NCBI GenBank assembly: GCA_035540635.1
Contig: DATLGH010000006.1
Location: 1 to 64,000 of the forward strand
Reading direction: 5' to 3'
DNA length: 64,000 nucleotides
Source: Egibacteraceae bacterium
Lineage (GTDB): Bacteria; Actinomycetota; Nitriliruptoria; Euzebyales; Egibacteraceae
The notes under the pieces are model-generated. The model did no database searches, was not told where the DNA came from, and worked only from the letters and a program-made list of their open reading frames with translations. Within the stretch, counting starts at the first letter, position 1, and each line of letters opens with the position of its first letter. Position numbers and translations under genes: made by a program. This document shows, in pieces, positions 42,012 through 60,417 of the stretch.

Positions 42012-43754
42012 TCAGCGCCGCGTGCGCTTGGCGGCGAGCTCGGCGTGCGCGCGACCCGTCGTGCGCAGGCTCGCGGCGAGGCGCTGCGACTCCTGCGCCA
42101 GGACGCGCCCGCCGGCGACGAGACTCGTGAGCTCCCCTTCGCAGTGGTGCAGCACCACGCCGCGGCCGTGGAGCCAGCCGGCGACGAGGCTGATCTCCTC
42201 GGCGTCGTCGGCGGCGACGTGTGCCGATGCGTCGCCCGGGCGCGGAGCGGCGGCGCGCAGCCGGGCGACCGCCGCCTCGACCTCGCACGGAACCGTGACG
42301 GTGCTCGCGACGAGGCGTCCGTGGCGCACGAGGACGACCTCCCGTCCCCCCGCATCTCGGGCGGGCCGTGAGGCGGCGAGCTCGGCAGGGGCGGCGACCC
42401 CGGCGAGCTGGCGGGTCCGCCGGAGGGCCGCCACGAGCGCGGCGAGACGGTCGCGCGCGGCCGCGGCCTCCTCGTAGCGCGCCTGCGCCGCGAGACGGCG
42501 CAGGCGCGCGGCGAGCTGGTCGAGCACCGGCGCGGGGTCCGCGGTGAGCGCCGCGGTCACCGCGGCGACCGCCGGTGCGTAGCCGTCAGGACCGACGCGG
42601 CCGTCACAGGGCGCCAGGCAGCGGCCCATCTCCGCGAGCGCGCAGGCGGTGAAGCGCGTGCGGGGCCCGATCCGCGCGCTGCAGCGACGCAGGGGCACGG
42701 CGTCGTGCAGCGCCTCGACGACGCGATCGGCGACGCGTCGCGACCCGAGCGGCCCGAGATAGGTCGCGCCGTCGTCGCGTGGTGCACGCACGATCGACAA
42801 CCGGGGGAACCGCTCGATGGTGAGCTTCAGCCACACCCCGCGACGTGGGTGCTTCGAGCGACGGTTGTACCGGGGACGGTGCGCAGCGATGAGCCGCACC
42901 TCCCGCACCGCGGCCTCGAGCGGCGTCGGGGTCACTCGGTGGTCGATCGCCGCGGTCTCTCGCAGCAGGTCGGCGATCTTGCGCCGCTCGTCCCCGCCGA
43001 AGTAGCTGCGCACCCGGGCGCGCAGGTCGGTCGCCTTGCCGACGTAGAGCGCCTCCCCCGTCGCCGAACGGAAGGTGTAGACGCCGGGGGACCGCGGCAG
43101 CCCGTCGGCCAGCCCCTTGCGCGCCCGGTACAGCGGAGCGTTGCGTACCCGCACGAACTCGACGAGGTCCTCGGCGGTCACGACACCGAACGAACCGGCG
43201 CGCTCGAGGAGGCCGTGGAGCACCTCGACCGTTGCGCGCGCGTCGGCGAGGGCCCGGTGCACCGGCAGCGTCCGGCAGCGAAAGAAGCCGGCCAGGGTCG
43301 CGAGCCTGCAGTCGCGGACCTCGTCGCGCACGAGCCGGCGCGCGAGGGCCGCGGTGCACACAACCGGATGCTCGAGGCGCGGGTAGCCGAGCCGGACGAG
43401 ATTGGCGTTCAGGAACCCCGTGTCGAAGCGGGCGTTGTGCGCCACGAGCATGGCCCCGCGGCTGAACTCGACGAACGACGGCAGCACCGCCTCAATGGGG
43501 GGGAAGGCGGCCACCATGGCGTCGGTGATGCCGGTGAGCGCACTGATCCCGCGGGGGATGGCCACGCAGGGGTTGACGAGCGTGGCGAGCTCGCCGAGCA
43601 CCTCCCCGCCACGGACCTTCACGGCCCCTACCTCCGTGATCCGGCTGTCGTTGGGCGAGCCCCCGGTGGTCTCGAGGTCGACCACGACGAAGGTCACCGC
43701 ATGCAGCGGTGTGGCGAGGTCGTCGAGGCGGGGCTGAAAGGCAGGGGCGCGCAT
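42012..43754 (-). CDS. DEDD exonuclease / UvrC-like GIY-YIG fusion (Cho-type)
   Basis: The 580-residue protein begins with a DnaQ-like 3'-5' exonuclease domain. Its motifs are FVVVDLETTGGSP, LVAHNARFDTGFL and VHRALADARATVEVL, which supply D-E, D and H/D. From about residue 215 a GIY-YIG nuclease domain follows, with PGVYTFRSATGEALYVGKATDLRARV, the N-terminal catalytic half of UvrC. RYNRRSKHP and Cys residues in the RCLAPCDG region are also UvrC-like. A UvrB-binding-like helix (RYEEAAAARDRLAAL) is present, but the UvrC C-terminal RNase H half is absent. This fusion is known in Actinobacteria and resembles Cho. A role in nucleotide excision repair is likely. Confidence 0.9.
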   Translation of the reverse strand: MRAPAFQPRLDDLATPLHAVTFVVVDLETTGGSPNDSRITEVGAVKVRGGEVLGELATLVNPCVAIPRGISALTGITDAMVAAFPPIEAVLPSFVEFSRGAMLVAHNARFDTGFLNANLVRLGYPRLEHPVVCTAALARRLVRDEVRDCRLATLAGFFRCRTLPVHRALADARATVEVLHGLLERAGSFGVVTAEDLVEFVRVRNAPLYRARKGLADGLPRSPGVYTFRSATGEALYVGKATDLRARVRSYFGGDERRKIADLLRETAAIDHRVTPTPLEAAVREVRLIAAHRPRYNRRSKHPRRGVWLKLTIERFPRLSIVRAPRDDGATYLGPLGSRRVADRVVEALHDAVPLRRCSARIGPRTRFTACALAEMGRCLAPCDGRVGPDGYAPAVAAVTAALTADPAPVLDQLAARLRRLAAQARYEEAAAARDRLAALVAALRRTRQLAGVAAPAELAASRPARDAGGREVVLVRHGRLVASTVTVPCEVEAAVARLRAAAPRPGDASAHVAADDAEEISLVAGWLHGRGVVLHHCEGELTSLVAGGRVLAQESQRLAASLRTTGRAHAELAAKRTRR

Positions 43755-55187: not shown

Positions 55188-55193
55188 ATTAGA
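55188..55193 (-). promoter_or_regulatory. -10 element for the leaderless Usp gene
   Basis: TCTAAT (minus strand) ends six bases before the ATG at 55181. No ribosome binding site is present. A longer in-frame start at 55199 would lie upstream of this element and is less likely. Confidence 0.5.
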
Positions 55194-55299
55194 CAGCATG
55201 CGCCTCCCGTGGCGCCTCGCGCCGGGGGGCGAACGGTGCTTTGCCATCCGGGCCGTGGCGCGCGGGTCGGGTTGGTTGCCTTGCGGGGCGCCGCTGGCG

Positions 55300-55305
55300 T
55301 CTACT
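55300..55305 (+). promoter_or_regulatory. -10 element for the leaderless TrkH gene
   Basis: TCTACT ends six bases before the ATG at 55312, again without a ribosome binding site. With the minus-strand element at 55188-55193 it makes a compact divergent promoter of about 130 bp. Confidence 0.5.
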
Positions 55306-55311
55306 GGGCCG

Positions 55312-56817
55312 ATGCTCTTCCGACCGGATGCGCGGGATTTCCGGCTGATCGGTCTCTACTCCGCCCGCGTGCTCATGGGTGTCGGGGTGGCGATGCTGCT
55401 GCCCGCCACCCTCGGATTCGCCCTCGGGGAGGTGAACGAGGCGTGGGGCTTCATCGTCGCTGCGGCGCTCGCGGTCCTCCTCGCCCGCACGGCCGAATGG
55501 GTGTGCAGGACGAACGCGGCGCTGACGACGAGTCACGGGCTCGCGGCGGTCGGGGCGGCGTGGCTGCTGGCCCCGGTGTTCGCGGCCGTACCGCTCCTGC
55601 TGTCCGGTCACTACGTGTCCTACCTCGACGCCTACTTCGAGGCGATGAGCGGGTTCGCCACCATCGGCCTCACCCTCGCGAACGACATCGACCACATGGC
55701 AAGGAGCGTCAACCTGTGGCGGCACCTCATGCAGTTCATGGGCGGGCAGGGGATCATCATCGTCTTCCTCACCCTGTTCGCGCGCGGCGGCGGGGCCATC
55801 GGCGCTCTGTACGTCGGCGAGGGCCGTGAGGAGACCATCCTGCCGAACGTCGTCAGCACCGCGCGGTTCATCTGGCGGGTGGCCCTCACCTACGCGGTCG
55901 TCGGCATCTTCCTGCTCTGGGCGGCGCTCGTCACCGCGGGGATGACGCCGGGCCTCGCGCTCTACCACGGGACGAACCTCTTCATGGCCGCGTTCGACAC
56001 CGGGGGGTTCGCGACGCAGTCCTCGTCGGTGGGCTTCTACCGCTCGCAGGTCGTCGAGGCGGTGCTCATGCCGATCATGGTCGCCGGGGGGTGCAGCTTC
56101 GCGCTGCACTACTGGCTGTGGCAGCGACGCGGCCGGGAGCTCGTCCGCAACCTGGAGTCGCGGGTGCTCGCCACCTCGATGCTGCTCGTGTTCGCCGTCA
56201 TGTGCGTCGGGGTGGCGCGGATCGGACTGTTCGCCGACGTCGGCCCGCTGTTCCGCCACGCGTTCTTCCAGACCGTCAGCGCGCACACGACGACCGGGCT
56301 CGCGACGGTGCCCGGTCGGCTGTACCTCACGGACTGGGGGGTGCTGGCGCCCGGGATGCTCGTCATCGCCATGGCGCTCGGCGGCATGGCGGGCTCCACG
56401 GCAGGAGGGATCAAGGCGCTGCGCGTCGGACTCGTCCTGAAGGGGCTGAGGCGTGACCTCCGCAAGCTCCTGCTGCCCCATGACGCGGTCGTCGTGGAGA
56501 CCTACCACGCCGGGCAACGGCGGATTCTCCGCAACCCCCAGGTGATGACCGCCGTCGTGGTGCTGCTCCTCTGGCTCGTCCTCTACCTGGCCGGGACGCT
56601 GGTCGGGCTCTTCTACGGTTACAACCTCCAGGTGGCCCTGTTCGACTCCACCGCCGCGGCGAGCTCGGGCGGGCTGTCGGTGGGCGTCGTCCGCCCCGAC
56701 CTCGAGACCCCCCTGAAGCTCGTCTACATCGCCCAGATGGTCCTCGGGCGACTCGAGTTCGTCGCGCTGTTCGTGCTCCTCGGCTACCTCGTCGCGATCG
56801 TCCGGGGCAGGGCATGA
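55312..56817 (+). CDS. TrkH/KtrB-family potassium transporter subunit
   Basis: The 501-residue protein has about ten transmembrane helices and four pore-loop-like repeats. These include AMSGFATIGLTLAND, NLFMAAFDTGGFATQSSSVGFY, TVSAHTTTGLATVP and DSTAAASSGGLSVGV, each with the conserved Gly of the K+ filter. It would take up potassium, gated by a cytoplasmic Trk/Ktr ring encoded elsewhere; none is adjacent. GGMAGSTAGGIKALRVGLVLKG is the conserved intracellular gate region. The ATG is set by a -10 element six bases upstream. The next gene overlaps (ATGA). Confidence 0.92.
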   Translation: MLFRPDARDFRLIGLYSARVLMGVGVAMLLPATLGFALGEVNEAWGFIVAAALAVLLARTAEWVCRTNAALTTSHGLAAVGAAWLLAPVFAAVPLLLSGHYVSYLDAYFEAMSGFATIGLTLANDIDHMARSVNLWRHLMQFMGGQGIIIVFLTLFARGGGAIGALYVGEGREETILPNVVSTARFIWRVALTYAVVGIFLLWAALVTAGMTPGLALYHGTNLFMAAFDTGGFATQSSSVGFYRSQVVEAVLMPIMVAGGCSFALHYWLWQRRGRELVRNLESRVLATSMLLVFAVMCVGVARIGLFADVGPLFRHAFFQTVSAHTTTGLATVPGRLYLTDWGVLAPGMLVIAMALGGMAGSTAGGIKALRVGLVLKGLRRDLRKLLLPHDAVVVETYHAGQRRILRNPQVMTAVVVLLLWLVLYLAGTLVGLFYGYNLQVALFDSTAAASSGGLSVGVVRPDLETPLKLVYIAQMVLGRLEFVALFVLLGYLVAIVRGRA

Positions 56818-57503
56818 GCCTCCAGGCGCCGGCCCGTGCAGTGAGTCGCCTCGGGGTGCTCGGTGGCGCCCTGGTCCTTGTCGCCCTCCTCGCAGGCGTC
56901 GTCGGGGTCGCCGAGGCGCTGCGTCATCCGCACGCCGACGTCCAGACCGCGACGCTCGCCGAGATGGGCGACGTCCGCGACGAGGTCGTGTGCCCGGACG
57001 CGCCAGCCGCTGCGGACGACGGTGCGGTCGCGGTGGGCTCCGGTGAGCTCCATGACTGCCCGGCGCTCTACGACGGCCTGCGGGTGCGCTACGAGGGCGA
57101 GGTCGTCGGCGCCTTGCTGTCCCGACGTGGCGTGGCGTGGACGCAGCTGAACGACGACGACTACGCCGGTGTGCTCGGCCCGCTGCCGGCGCACCGTGTC
57201 TACCGGGGCAGCAACGCAGGGGTCGGGGTCCTCCTGCCCACCGGGGTCGCCGAGGTCGTCGAATGGGTGGGCGGTCCCGCCGCTCGTGGCGACGTGCTCG
57301 TCGTCACGGGGACCTTCCACCGCGTCGACCCGGCCAGCCGGGAGGTCGCGGTCATACGGGCCGACTCGGCGGTGACGTCCCGCCCCGGGGGGCCCGCCCC
57401 AGCCGAGCCGCTGCCCGCCCGGCGGGTCCTCGGCATCGTGCTCGGGATCGCGGCCGCGGGCGTCACGGCGGGCCCCTGGCTCCTGCGCCGATGGAGCCGT
57501 TAG
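56814..57503 (+). CDS. Membrane protein with OB-like outer domain, unknown function
   Basis: The 229-residue protein has an N-terminal transmembrane helix (LGGALVLVALLAGVVGVAEAL). An outer domain has two Cys (VVCPDA and HDCPALYDG), and a C-terminal helix (VLGIVLGIAAAGVTAGPWLL) ends in a basic tail. The middle segment (LRVRYEGEVVGALLSRRGVA, then WTQLNDDDYAGVLG) resembles an OB-fold strand pattern. I do not recognise a named family. It overlaps trkH by four bases and is co-transcribed with it, so a role in potassium transport is possible. Confidence 0.68.
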   Translation: MSLQAPARAVSRLGVLGGALVLVALLAGVVGVAEALRHPHADVQTATLAEMGDVRDEVVCPDAPAAADDGAVAVGSGELHDCPALYDGLRVRYEGEVVGALLSRRGVAWTQLNDDDYAGVLGPLPAHRVYRGSNAGVGVLLPTGVAEVVEWVGGPAARGDVLVVTGTFHRVDPASREVAVIRADSAVTSRPGGPAPAEPLPARRVLGIVLGIAAAGVTAGPWLLRRWSR

Positions 57504-57657
57504 CTCAGGGGGTCAGCGTGTGGTAGTCGGCCTGGATGGCGTTGCGGTCTCGTGGTCGTGGTGGCCGGTTGCGTTCCGACCGTGCGACGATGAGGTTGCA
57601 GCGCCGTTGCAGCCGTGCGGCTCCCGTGACTGGACGCGGCGCCGGCGTGCGCATCCG

Positions 57658-57686
57658 GTGGGGCGTCTGGAACGCCCCACGTGGGG
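57658..57686. promoter_or_regulatory. Inverted-repeat pair before the protealysin-like gene
   Basis: GTGGGGCGT (57658-57666) and ACGCCCCAC (57672-57680) form a perfect 9-bp inverted repeat with a 5-base loop. A third copy GTGGGG follows at 57681-57686, so CCCCACGTGGGG is also a 12-bp palindrome. It lies 12 bases upstream of the ATG at 57699, next to the ribosome binding site. It could act as a repressor operator or as mutually exclusive RNA hairpins controlling translation. Confidence 0.5.
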
Positions 57687-57698
57687 AAAGGGAGCCTC

Positions 57699-58757
57699 AT
57701 GGTCTCGCACCCGCACCGATGCTCCTACATCCCGCCGCACGTCCTCGATCGTGTGGCGCGCCGCGCCGACGAGCCGGCGAAGGCCGCCGCCCGTGCGACC
57801 GCTCAGCAGAGCCAGGCGACCCGGCGCGCGCGCGCCGGCGCGATGCTCACCGTCCCCCGCCTGCTCGCCGCCCGGGCCGGCGTGGCGGCAGAAGCGGCGG
57901 GGGCACGGAGGGTGTATGACTGCAAGGGCCAGTGGGAGCAGCAGGTGGCCCTCGCGCGCAAGGAAGGCGACGAGGAGGCCTCAGGCGACGTCGACGTCGA
58001 CACCGTCTACGAGCACGCCGGGTTCGCCCGCGAGTTCTACCGCGCCGAGCTCGGTCGCAACTCCATCGACAACCAGGGCATGGACCTCGTCTTGAACGTG
58101 CACTACGGCGAGGACTACATGAACGCGCTCTGGGACGGCGAGCAGATCCTGTTCGGCGACGGCGACGGGGAGATCTTCTCGAGCCTCGCCCGGTCCCTGG
58201 AGGTCACCGCCCACGAGCTCACCCACGGCGTCGTGCAGTTCTCGGCGAACCTCGAGTACTACAGCCAGTCGGGCGCGTTGGACGAGAGCATGGCCGACGT
58301 GCTCGGCGCGGCCGTCACCCAGCACGCCGAAGGCCAGGACGCGGGCCAGGCTGACTGGCTCATCGGCGACGAGGTCATGGGCCCGACCCTGTACGGCGAG
58401 GCTCTGCGGTCGGTCAAGGCGCCGGGCACCGCCTACCACAACACCTTGCTCGGCAGGGACCCCCAGCCCGCGCACATGGACGACTACTTCACCGGCACCG
58501 AGGACCACCAGGGGGTCCACATCAACAGCGGCATCCCGAACCGGGCCTTCTACCTGACCGCTTCGGACGTCGGGACGCCGGCCGCGGGCCGCATCTGGTA
58601 CGCCGCACTGCACCGGTTGTGGCCGACGGCGGACTTCAACGACGCCGTGGAGGTCATCGTTGACACCACCCGGGAGCTGACGCGCGACGAGCAGGCGCCG
58701 AAAGGCGCGGCGCAGGTCGTGCGAGCCGCCTTCCGGGAGGTCGGTCTGCCGCGCTAG
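57699..58757 (+). CDS. M4-family metalloprotease, protealysin-like
   Basis: The 352-residue enzyme is a thermolysin-like M4 protease with the zinc motif VTAHELTHGVVQF and GALDESMADVLGA (third ligand Glu). YYSQSGALDE and INSGIPNRAFYL, with the catalytic His region HINSG, are present. It has no signal peptide and only a short propeptide region beginning HRCSYIPPHVLDRVA, the hallmark of protealysin-type enzymes rather than secreted thermolysins. The ATG at 57699 has AGGGAG five bases upstream; an in-frame GTG at 57681 adds six residues. The next gene encodes a putative emfourin-like inhibitor. Confidence 0.9.
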   Translation: MVSHPHRCSYIPPHVLDRVARRADEPAKAAARATAQQSQATRRARAGAMLTVPRLLAARAGVAAEAAGARRVYDCKGQWEQQVALARKEGDEEASGDVDVDTVYEHAGFAREFYRAELGRNSIDNQGMDLVLNVHYGEDYMNALWDGEQILFGDGDGEIFSSLARSLEVTAHELTHGVVQFSANLEYYSQSGALDESMADVLGAAVTQHAEGQDAGQADWLIGDEVMGPTLYGEALRSVKAPGTAYHNTLLGRDPQPAHMDDYFTGTEDHQGVHINSGIPNRAFYLTASDVGTPAAGRIWYAALHRLWPTADFNDAVEVIVDTTRELTRDEQAPKGAAQVVRAAFREVGLPR

Positions 58758-58773
58758 CAGGAGGGGGTGAGCG

Positions 58774-59136
58774 GTGCAGATCGACTTCGAGCTGCGTGGC
58801 GGGTACGGGGGGTTGTTCGCCACCAAGCCCCTCGTGCACCGCGTCGCCACGACCGACTTGCCGCCGGGGGAGCGCGAGCAGCTCGAGGACCTCGTCCGGC
58901 GGGCGGGCCTCCTCGAAGGCGGGGTCCCCCCACCGGCGTCCCCGGCCGGCGGCGCGGAGGCGGCGGCGGAACGGCCCTCCACCGGGGCACGCCGGGCCGA
59001 CACGTTCACCTACCGCCTGTCCCTGCGCGGCGGCGGGCGGTCGGGGACCTACACCTACGACGACGTGACCGTCCCCCCCGCGGTGCGCCCGCTGCTCACC
59101 TGGCTGCAGAAGCGGGCCCTGTCCGCCCGCGGGTGA
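58774..59136 (+). CDS. Emfourin-like protealysin inhibitor
   Basis: The 120-residue protein matches the emfourin (M4in) layout. A first strand IDFELRGGYGGLFA, then LPPGEREQLEDLVRRAGLL, an inserted low-complexity Pro/Ala/Gly loop, and a second half with YRLSLRGGGRSGTYTYDDV and VPPAVRPLLTWLQKRA follow in order. Emfourins are small proteins encoded next to protealysin-like proteases that inhibit them tightly. It starts with GTG 16 bp downstream of the protease stop, with GGAGG upstream, and is co-transcribed. The central low-complexity loop is longer than I expect for the family. Confidence 0.75.
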   Translation: MQIDFELRGGYGGLFATKPLVHRVATTDLPPGEREQLEDLVRRAGLLEGGVPPPASPAGGAEAAAERPSTGARRADTFTYRLSLRGGGRSGTYTYDDVTVPPAVRPLLTWLQKRALSARG

Positions 59137-59163
59137 GGCGGGCACCGGCACCGCGGGGCCCGG

Positions 59164-60417
59164 CTACTCGGGCGCGGACTCCTCGAGCTCCAACCCCCGG
59201 GTCTCGGGCAGGCGGTGGTACAGCGCGGCGATCAGCACGACCGGCACGCTGATGGTCAGCGCCGCCGGCCCGAAGGCGTCGTAGGCGTCGACGAGGATGC
59301 CGAAGGCGAGGAGCCCGAGGACAGCCCCGACGATGTTGGCGGCGGCGACCCACCCCGCCGCCGTCCCCCGCTGGGACGTCGGGAACAGCTCGGCGTCGAG
59401 GGCGCCCGCCGCCGGAGCGTAGGCGGCGGCGGCGCCGATGCCCCCGACGTAGCCGAGCGCCACCCCCGCAGGCTCGCCGCTGTAGGTCAGGACCCCCGCC
59501 GCGGCGGTGAGCGCCATCGCGACGCCGGCGCTCAGTCGGCGGCCGAAGCGGTCAGCCGCCCACCGGCCGATGACCAGGCCGAGCAGGCCGGTGGGAGCCG
59601 CGGCGACGAAGAGCCACGCCATGGTCGCCGACGTCATCCCGAGGATGCGCTCGCCGTACAGGAACAGGTTCGTGTTCACCGGCCCGGTGACGAAGCCGAA
59701 CCCGACATGCAGGAGGAAGAGCAGCGCGAGCCGTCCCCGCAGGTCGCGGCGGACGGCGCCGAGCCGCGGGCGGCTCGACGGCGCGCGGGCCCGCAGCCCG
59801 GCGAAGCGGCTCGGCTCGTCCAGCCAGCGACCGAGCAGGGGCACGAAAAGCAGCGGCAGCGCGGCCATGGCGAACAGGCCGCGGAATCCGTACGCGGGCG
59901 GGATGACGGTGCGCACGAGCGCGGTGAGGCCCGCGCCGAGGGCGTAGCCGGCGGTGATCAGGGCGATGGCCTTCGAGCGGTCGCTGCTGCGGGTCTCCTC
60001 GGCCGCGATGACGGTGGCGAGTGCGTTCGTCGCCGACAGCAGGGGGCGGGCGAGGGCGAACAGCGCGACGAACCACCAGAAGCTGGGGCTCGCGGCAGTG
60101 GCCAGCGTCATGAGCAGCCCGGTGCCGCAGCACCAGAGGATCACACGTCGCCGGCCGGCGCGGTCGGCGAGGCCCGCGAGCGGCAACGCCGCGAGGGACG
60201 CGAGGCGGATGAAGGCCAGGCCGGCGCCGAGGGTCGTCCCGGTGAGCCCCGCCATGTCGGCGACCGAGCCCGCCGGCTGCGGCTCACCGAACGCCGCGGC
60301 GACGTCGCCGAGCGCCACGGTCACGCCGAAGCTCGCGAACCCCGACGCGACCGACAGCCCCGCCGCGGCGAGGATGGCCGGATGCAGCCAGCCTCGGGTG
60401 CGCAGCAGCGTGGACAT
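59164..60417 (-). CDS. MFS transporter
   Basis: The 417-residue protein has twelve predicted transmembrane helices. It carries the MFS loop motif LADRAGRRRVILW after helix 2 and its C-terminal counterpart GRWAADRFGRRLSAG. The central loop (RFAGLRARAPSSRPRLG) separates the halves. The substrate is unknown. GLRARAPSS and adjacent Arg residues are simply cytoplasmic basic loops. AGAGG lies four bases before the ATG at 60417. It is divergent from glgX, with 77 bp between starts, and converges with the emfourin gene. Confidence 0.88.
   Translation of the reverse strand: MSTLLRTRGWLHPAILAAAGLSVASGFASFGVTVALGDVAAAFGEPQPAGSVADMAGLTGTTLGAGLAFIRLASLAALPLAGLADRAGRRRVILWCCGTGLLMTLATAASPSFWWFVALFALARPLLSATNALATVIAAEETRSSDRSKAIALITAGYALGAGLTALVRTVIPPAYGFRGLFAMAALPLLFVPLLGRWLDEPSRFAGLRARAPSSRPRLGAVRRDLRGRLALLFLLHVGFGFVTGPVNTNLFLYGERILGMTSATMAWLFVAAAPTGLLGLVIGRWAADRFGRRLSAGVAMALTAAAGVLTYSGEPAGVALGYVGGIGAAAAYAPAAGALDAELFPTSQRGTAAGWVAAANIVGAVLGLLAFGILVDAYDAFGPAALTISVPVVLIAALYHRLPETRGLELEESAPE

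Follow-up and report, generated by a model that had tools for sequence, protein, structure and literature searches.

A protealysin–emfourin-type operon in an Egibacteraceae genome and a putative DNA-damage promoter before some of its actinobacterial relatives

The protease gene and its surroundings

The window analysed here, a stretch of 64,000 nucleotides forming positions 1 to 64,000 of contig DATLGH010000006.1 of an Egibacteraceae bacterium, carries two adjacent genes on its forward strand, namely, a gene for a 352-residue protealysin-like M4 metalloprotease precursor (57699..58757) and a gene for a 120-residue protein of the emfourin inhibitor family (58774..59136). The second gene begins with a GTG at 58774, 16 nt past the stop codon of the first, which ends at 58757. 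The likely ribosome-binding site of the protease gene, AAAGGGAG, was read from the sequence at 57687..57694 on the same strand, before the ATG at 57699, and the identical eight letters stand 5' of the protease ATG in one relative, L012. Upstream, directly after TrkH, a gene at 56814-57503 encodes a 229-residue protein with an N-terminal hydrophobic stretch, for which no Pfam or NCBIfam match was found up to an E-value of 1; NCBIfam gave no family above cut-off for the three proteins tried. Elsewhere in the window, a perfect 14-bp inverted repeat with a 5-nt loop (42477-42509) has the longest stem among the repeats listed. The two-gene protealysin–emfourin arrangement is genuine and corresponds to a type already described, in a host that is new for such an operon.

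The first product had been called an M4 protease in an earlier note made from the sequence, and this assignment holds for the open reading frame running from the ATG at 57699 to the stop ending at 58757: both the M4_C (150.3 bits) and M4 (94.4 bits) Pfam families exceed their cut-offs, and the best sequence match in the PDB by phmmer is 2vqx (E 9.9e-72), with residues 9-349 aligning to residues 8-339. The database describes 2vqx as a metalloproteinase, and we take it to be the protealysin precursor. The HELTH sequence lies at residues 172-176, and H172, E173, H176, E196 and H274 are invariant among 13 aligned sequences; with roles assigned from thermolysin, these correspond to the zinc ligands and the catalytic histidine (HExxH, E, H). 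With regard to the N-terminus, the propeptide letters pointed out earlier, RCSYIPPHVL with a preceding H, are present near the start, and P12 and P13 within them are invariant in the 13 aligned proteases. The PLN_propep family scores 18.6 bits over residues 8-34, below its cut-off of 28.1, and at an E-value of 0.001 it matches only three of the 13 proteases. The reported lack of a signal peptide is in line with hydropathy, used here in place of a dedicated predictor: no hydrophobic stretch was found, the best 12-residue value within the first 40 residues being 0.22, against 3.08 in the neighbouring 229-residue protein.

The emfourin-family protein

The product of the second gene, described beforehand as emfourin-like, matches the Pfam family Emfourin (PF20242) with 53.9 bits against a cut-off of 27. 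A single-sequence phmmer search of the PDB returned nothing at E-values up to 10, and a profile of 30 sequences found 6zyg at E 2.4e-10, an entry named protealysin-associated protein in the database and Emfourin in its title. The earlier note had made the assignment depend on homologues sharing the emfourin profile; all 30 members of the alignment match PF20242, the window protein included, these having been chosen by hand from 70 homologues that a profile started from the window protein had gathered. The structural model of the inhibitor has a mean pLDDT of 82.5, with a dip at residues 11-20 and a loop of low confidence around residues 51-70 (block values of 55 for residues 51-60 and 50 for residues 61-70). 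With this model, Foldseek places 6zyg at rank 1, but weakly (E 0.032), and VIA-align gives 6zyg a Z of 5.5, beneath Mago proteins with Z up to 7.8, so the fold adds little to the evidence from sequence families.

Linkage of the two genes in related loci

Searching the genome collection with the protease as query yielded 79 related loci, drawn from the best 80 of 94 confirmed stretches, with patterns that reach close relatives only. An emfourin domain, sought with a profile built up from the window emfourin, occurs in 69 of these 79 loci. The order is reversed, with emfourin before the protease, in L030, L056 and L058. In eight loci, mostly from Intrasporangiaceae, protease and emfourin share one open frame (L025, L036, L055, L066, L067, L068, L082 and L085), an arrangement that speaks for a functional pair. 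Among the six of these that were aligned, each one has M4 and emfourin Pfam matches within one protein. A model of the fused protein (mean pLDDT 84.5, pTM 0.63) is confident across most of each domain. In the protease tree, the fused L025, L055, L066, L067, L068 and L082 fall in one clade (support 100/97) and L036 and L085 lie elsewhere, so the fusion may have arisen more than once.

Origin of the pair

Within the class to which the window belongs, the protease query matches three of 66 genomes, these being the window's own genome and two with distant proteins (38% and 32% identity). The emfourin family matches two of the 66, the second match being partial and located in G012. The protease tree groups the window with two Desulfobacterales loci (L011 and L033) and one from Kiloniellales (L012) in a four-row clade with 100/100 support, these closest relatives all being contigs of metagenome-assembled genomes, where binning errors occur. 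The next sisters are the Actinomycetota rows L047 and L077 (98/91), so the transfer may have run in either direction.

Comparison with a genome of the same genus, G001, showed that the flanks are kept, with DNA identities of 80% for glgX-MFS and 77% for Usp, which argues against a stray contig. In place of the block at 55191-59167, which comprises TrkH, the 229-residue protein, the protease and emfourin, G001 has an O-methyltransferase gene (PF01596, 166.8 bits). The patchy distribution and this replacement could be explained by horizontal transfer, or by gain and loss within the group, and the protease–emfourin pair was probably acquired by horizontal transfer.

The inverted repeat upstream of the protease

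A perfect 9-bp inverted repeat with a 5-nt loop, GTGGGGCGT-CTGGA-ACGCCCCAC, occupies 57658..57680 and ends 18 bases before the ATG. It is overlapped by a perfect 12-nt palindrome, CCCCACGTGGGG, read in the sequence at 57675..57686 and ending 12 bases before the ATG. The distance of 12 bases to the ATG given by the earlier note thus stands for the palindrome but not for the 9-bp repeat.

Over the window, repeats of this type are about as frequent as chance: there are 13 perfect stems of at least 9 bp with loops of 3-10 nt, compared with 5-14 (mean 9.2) in 10 sequences simulated by a first-order Markov model. Perfect 12-nt palindromes amount to 60 in the window. Without mismatches, the genome holds a single copy of the repeat; with up to three mismatches it is found at four places including itself, against seven for a reversed control pattern, and its core, GGGGCG-N7-CGCCCC, is not enriched, with four places against eight for the control. 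None of 75 relatives (the 79 loci minus four without an assigned start), the nearest ones, L011, L012 and L033, included, has its arms within 110 nt upstream of the protease gene. A perfect repeat of any sequence of at least 7 bp is present in this region in 14 of the 75, and of at least 9 bp in one, L033, where it is terminator-like with a T run. The leader RNA folds with a z of -1.13, a stability reached by 25 of 200 shuffles. Given this frequency over the window, the lack of sister sites and of conservation, and the ordinary fold, the repeat is best read as incidental, most probably a GC-rich hairpin that arose by chance and has no regulator of its own.

The proposal of the earlier note that the repeat is a candidate control element was accordingly not upheld: there is no excess of genome sites, and neither the relatives, the chance frequency in the window nor the RNA fold supports an operator or regulon. 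One could still suppose a genuine operator of a private, single-target repressor, which might have arrived with the operon and would overlap the promoter or block RNA polymerase. Such a site need not have sisters, and a perfect 9-bp repeat overlapping a 12-nt palindrome in a leader is locally rare, since the chance of such a stem in one 100-nt stretch is 1.3%, a figure uncorrected for picking one gene among dozens. With no regulator among the seven neighbourhood proteins scanned, no counterpart of the arms upstream of the relatives, no excess of sister sites and 13 comparable repeats in the window where 9.2 are expected, this private operator is decidedly unlikely. A hairpin acting as RNA in the 5' leader, where it might protect the mRNA or tune access to the ribosome-binding site, would suit its position directly 5' of AAAGGGAG and the predicted fold, in which GUGGGG after the repeat pairs with CCUCAU, a stretch that includes the AU of the start codon. 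The fold energy is, however, ordinary, and no relative has a hairpin with the same arms, although perfect repeats of at least 7 bp with other arms occur in 14 of 75, so we consider this role unlikely, if slightly less so than the operator. Two further readings were rejected. A terminator does not fit the scan of 57300-59300, in which no terminator-like site was found, or the lack of a T run in the repeat; a mobile-element junction does not fit the breakpoints of G001, at about 55191 and 59167, away from the repeat. The incidental reading is therefore retained, and the repeat need not be followed as a new control element.

Proposed working of the pair

A known pair is that of Serratia, in which both genes lie in one operon and emfourin forms a 1:1 complex with protealysin at its active-site region (PMC9505478). 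According to the same report, extracts of a strain deleted for the inhibitor cleave more actin (65% versus 40%) and the density of its cultures drops earlier, protealysin cleaves RecA and FtsZ, and an antibacterial effector–immunity role has been proposed for the pair (PMC9505478).

By analogy, we infer the cotranscription, the inhibition, the substrates and the trigger of the window pair. The protease would be made as a cytoplasmic precursor, the putative short propeptide of which would presumably be removed later, and the inhibitor, probably translated off the same mRNA, would bind the active site and keep the protease silent. This silence would end once the inhibitor is lost or the protease is in excess, and the freed enzyme would then cut housekeeping proteins, for instance RecA and FtsZ, as for the Serratia enzyme. 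Taken together, we hold it to be very probable that the locus is a protealysin–emfourin operon, likely gained horizontally, encoding a cytoplasmic precursor that is held silent by its inhibitor, with the repeat being incidental. The effector–immunity role put forward for Serratia would instead have the protease delivered to competitors, with emfourin as the immunity protein, and the location of the pair within a block that varies inside the genus would be compatible with it. The protease has no stretch resembling a signal peptide, however, no secretion system was found among the seven neighbouring proteins scanned, and the protease–inhibitor fusions of relatives would be an odd arrangement for immunity; we judge this role to be very unlikely here. 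The window pair extends a known intracellular protease–inhibitor system to a further lineage.

A putative PafBC-type promoter before some actinobacterial relatives

A TGTCGG-type motif was noticed by eye in the upstream regions of related protease genes of several actinobacteria before any matrix was built. For comparison, the upstream regions of recA were taken from 30 genomes hand-picked among the 79 loci, and sites were pulled with a RecA-NDp consensus, which we take to be TGTCRGNG-N8-TANNNT. A loose form of this pattern is present in 29 of the 30 recA upstream regions (L113 being without). The matrix derived from 25 distinct recA sites, ignoring seven of the eight spacer positions, gives these sites scores of 21.5-27.6 and was run on the protease upstream regions, a locus passing when a site scoring at least 8 lay with its end 4-9 nt upstream of a start codon that was in frame and close to the expected one. 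The RecA-NDp promoter is the one activated by PafBC on DNA damage, the motif being named in PMC6789036 and PMC8223512.

Among the 79 loci from the best 80 of 94 stretches, 20 pass, all of them from Actinomycetota, against about 0.4 expected, with kinship among the loci inflating the count; the expectation derives from 0.16% of 23,700 random start codons of the same loci passing at 8, and from 2.8 candidate starts per locus. The passing loci (L038, L045, L046, L048, L050, L051, L052, L054, L057, L063, L064, L066, L068, L070, L071, L074, L079, L081, L082 and L084) span Microbacteriaceae, Aeromicrobium, Intrasporangiaceae, kin of Quadrisphaera, and Ornithinimicrobium, and ten of them score at least 14. 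The gap between site and ATG is 6 nt in 14 of the 20, 7 nt in five and 5 nt in one. L070 is titled Streptomyces yet groups with Quadrisphaera in the tree, and no passing site was found in the other Streptomyces, in Frankia or in non-actinobacterial loci of the set.

The remaining 59 loci score under 8, L060 (7.8), L078 (4.8), L042 (3.4) and L055 (-1.0) among them, or lie outside the count for reasons of gene start. Thus, L086 has no gene start, L036 carries a good site (11.2) but lacks a suitably spaced start codon, and in L067 (10.2) and L076 (13.6) sites were found on a widened search past a misplaced start. The same widened search left L069, L073, L085 and L055 without a site. As for the loci with reversed order, no site was found upstream of the inhibitor in L030 and L058, and a site scoring 11.1 some 50 nt from the inhibitor in L056, from Gemmatimonadota, was taken as chance.

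A second search covered 396 genomes of the phylum, of which 49 matched, and the 29 loci returned besides the window were scanned. Six of these 29 score at least 8, all with the site 6-7 nt before the ATG, a seventh (L147), with the same spacing, scores 6.7, and none of the other 22 reaches a score of 6. These seven loci share at most about 84% DNA identity with the nearest loci of the first set over the aligned part, and hence come from other species.

The window operon itself has no PafBC-type site, the best matrix score between 57504 and 57760 being 3.9. The recA upstream region of its genome has a weak RecA-NDp-like site (6.6), so PafBC control is not claimed there. The RecA-NDp consensus, with at most one mismatch, occurs at 33 places in the window genome and a control pattern at eight.

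A different element was seen in Streptomyces relatives, where GTGACA-N17-CACATT lies close to the protease start in 15 of the 18 loci inspected. Those with a conserved upstream block include L014-L019, L023, L024, L027, L032, L037, L040, L062 and L083, and in L018 and L062 the block holds a perfect CTGTCAC-N5-GTGACAG repeat.

We lean, by a modest degree, towards the view that actinobacterial protealysin–emfourin operons of the promoter-bearing kind belong to the PafBC, RecA-independent, damage regulon, the window copy, in its probably horizontally gained block, being without this control. The promoter, 5-7 nt before the ATG, would yield a leaderless mRNA, and the protease and its brake would both be induced by damage; the protease may then shorten RecA or delay cell division for as long as repair lasts. 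A damage-type promoter before the same operon in several actinobacterial families would fit the RecA and FtsZ cleavage reported for Serratia protealysin, and this cleavage makes a role in the damage response testable for the promoter-bearing operons. Among the titles and abstracts listed, none links protealysin or emfourin to PafBC, and nothing was found joining M4 family metallopeptidase, DNA damage and Actinobacteria. The putative PafBC-type promoter before some actinobacterial relatives is the part worth following, and the link bears on what intracellular protealysins are for.

Comparison with known systems

The window operon resembles that of Serratia proteamaculans, as far as described in PMC9505478 and represented by 2vqx and 6zyg, in having adjacent protease and inhibitor genes, an M4 catalytic core, a putative short propeptide and an inhibitor matching the emfourin family. 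It differs in that its host belongs to another phylum, its propeptide scores below the Pfam cut-off, and its inhibitor is only remotely similar and has an extra loop. Closer in sequence are the operons of Desulfobacterales (L011 and L033) and Kiloniellales (L012), which share 57-59% protease identity, the same gene order and the same Cys-containing propeptide start before the PP motif, whereas their upstream regions differ and lack the window repeat, and the inhibitor starts about 90 nt (L012) or 190-310 nt (L011 and L033) past the end of the protease gene, compared with 16 nt in the window. The actinobacterial operons of Microbacteriaceae, Intrasporangiaceae, Aeromicrobium and others encode the same pair as the window, sometimes fused, but, unlike the window, 20 of the 79 related loci carry a putative RecA-NDp/PafBC-type promoter beside the protease ATG.
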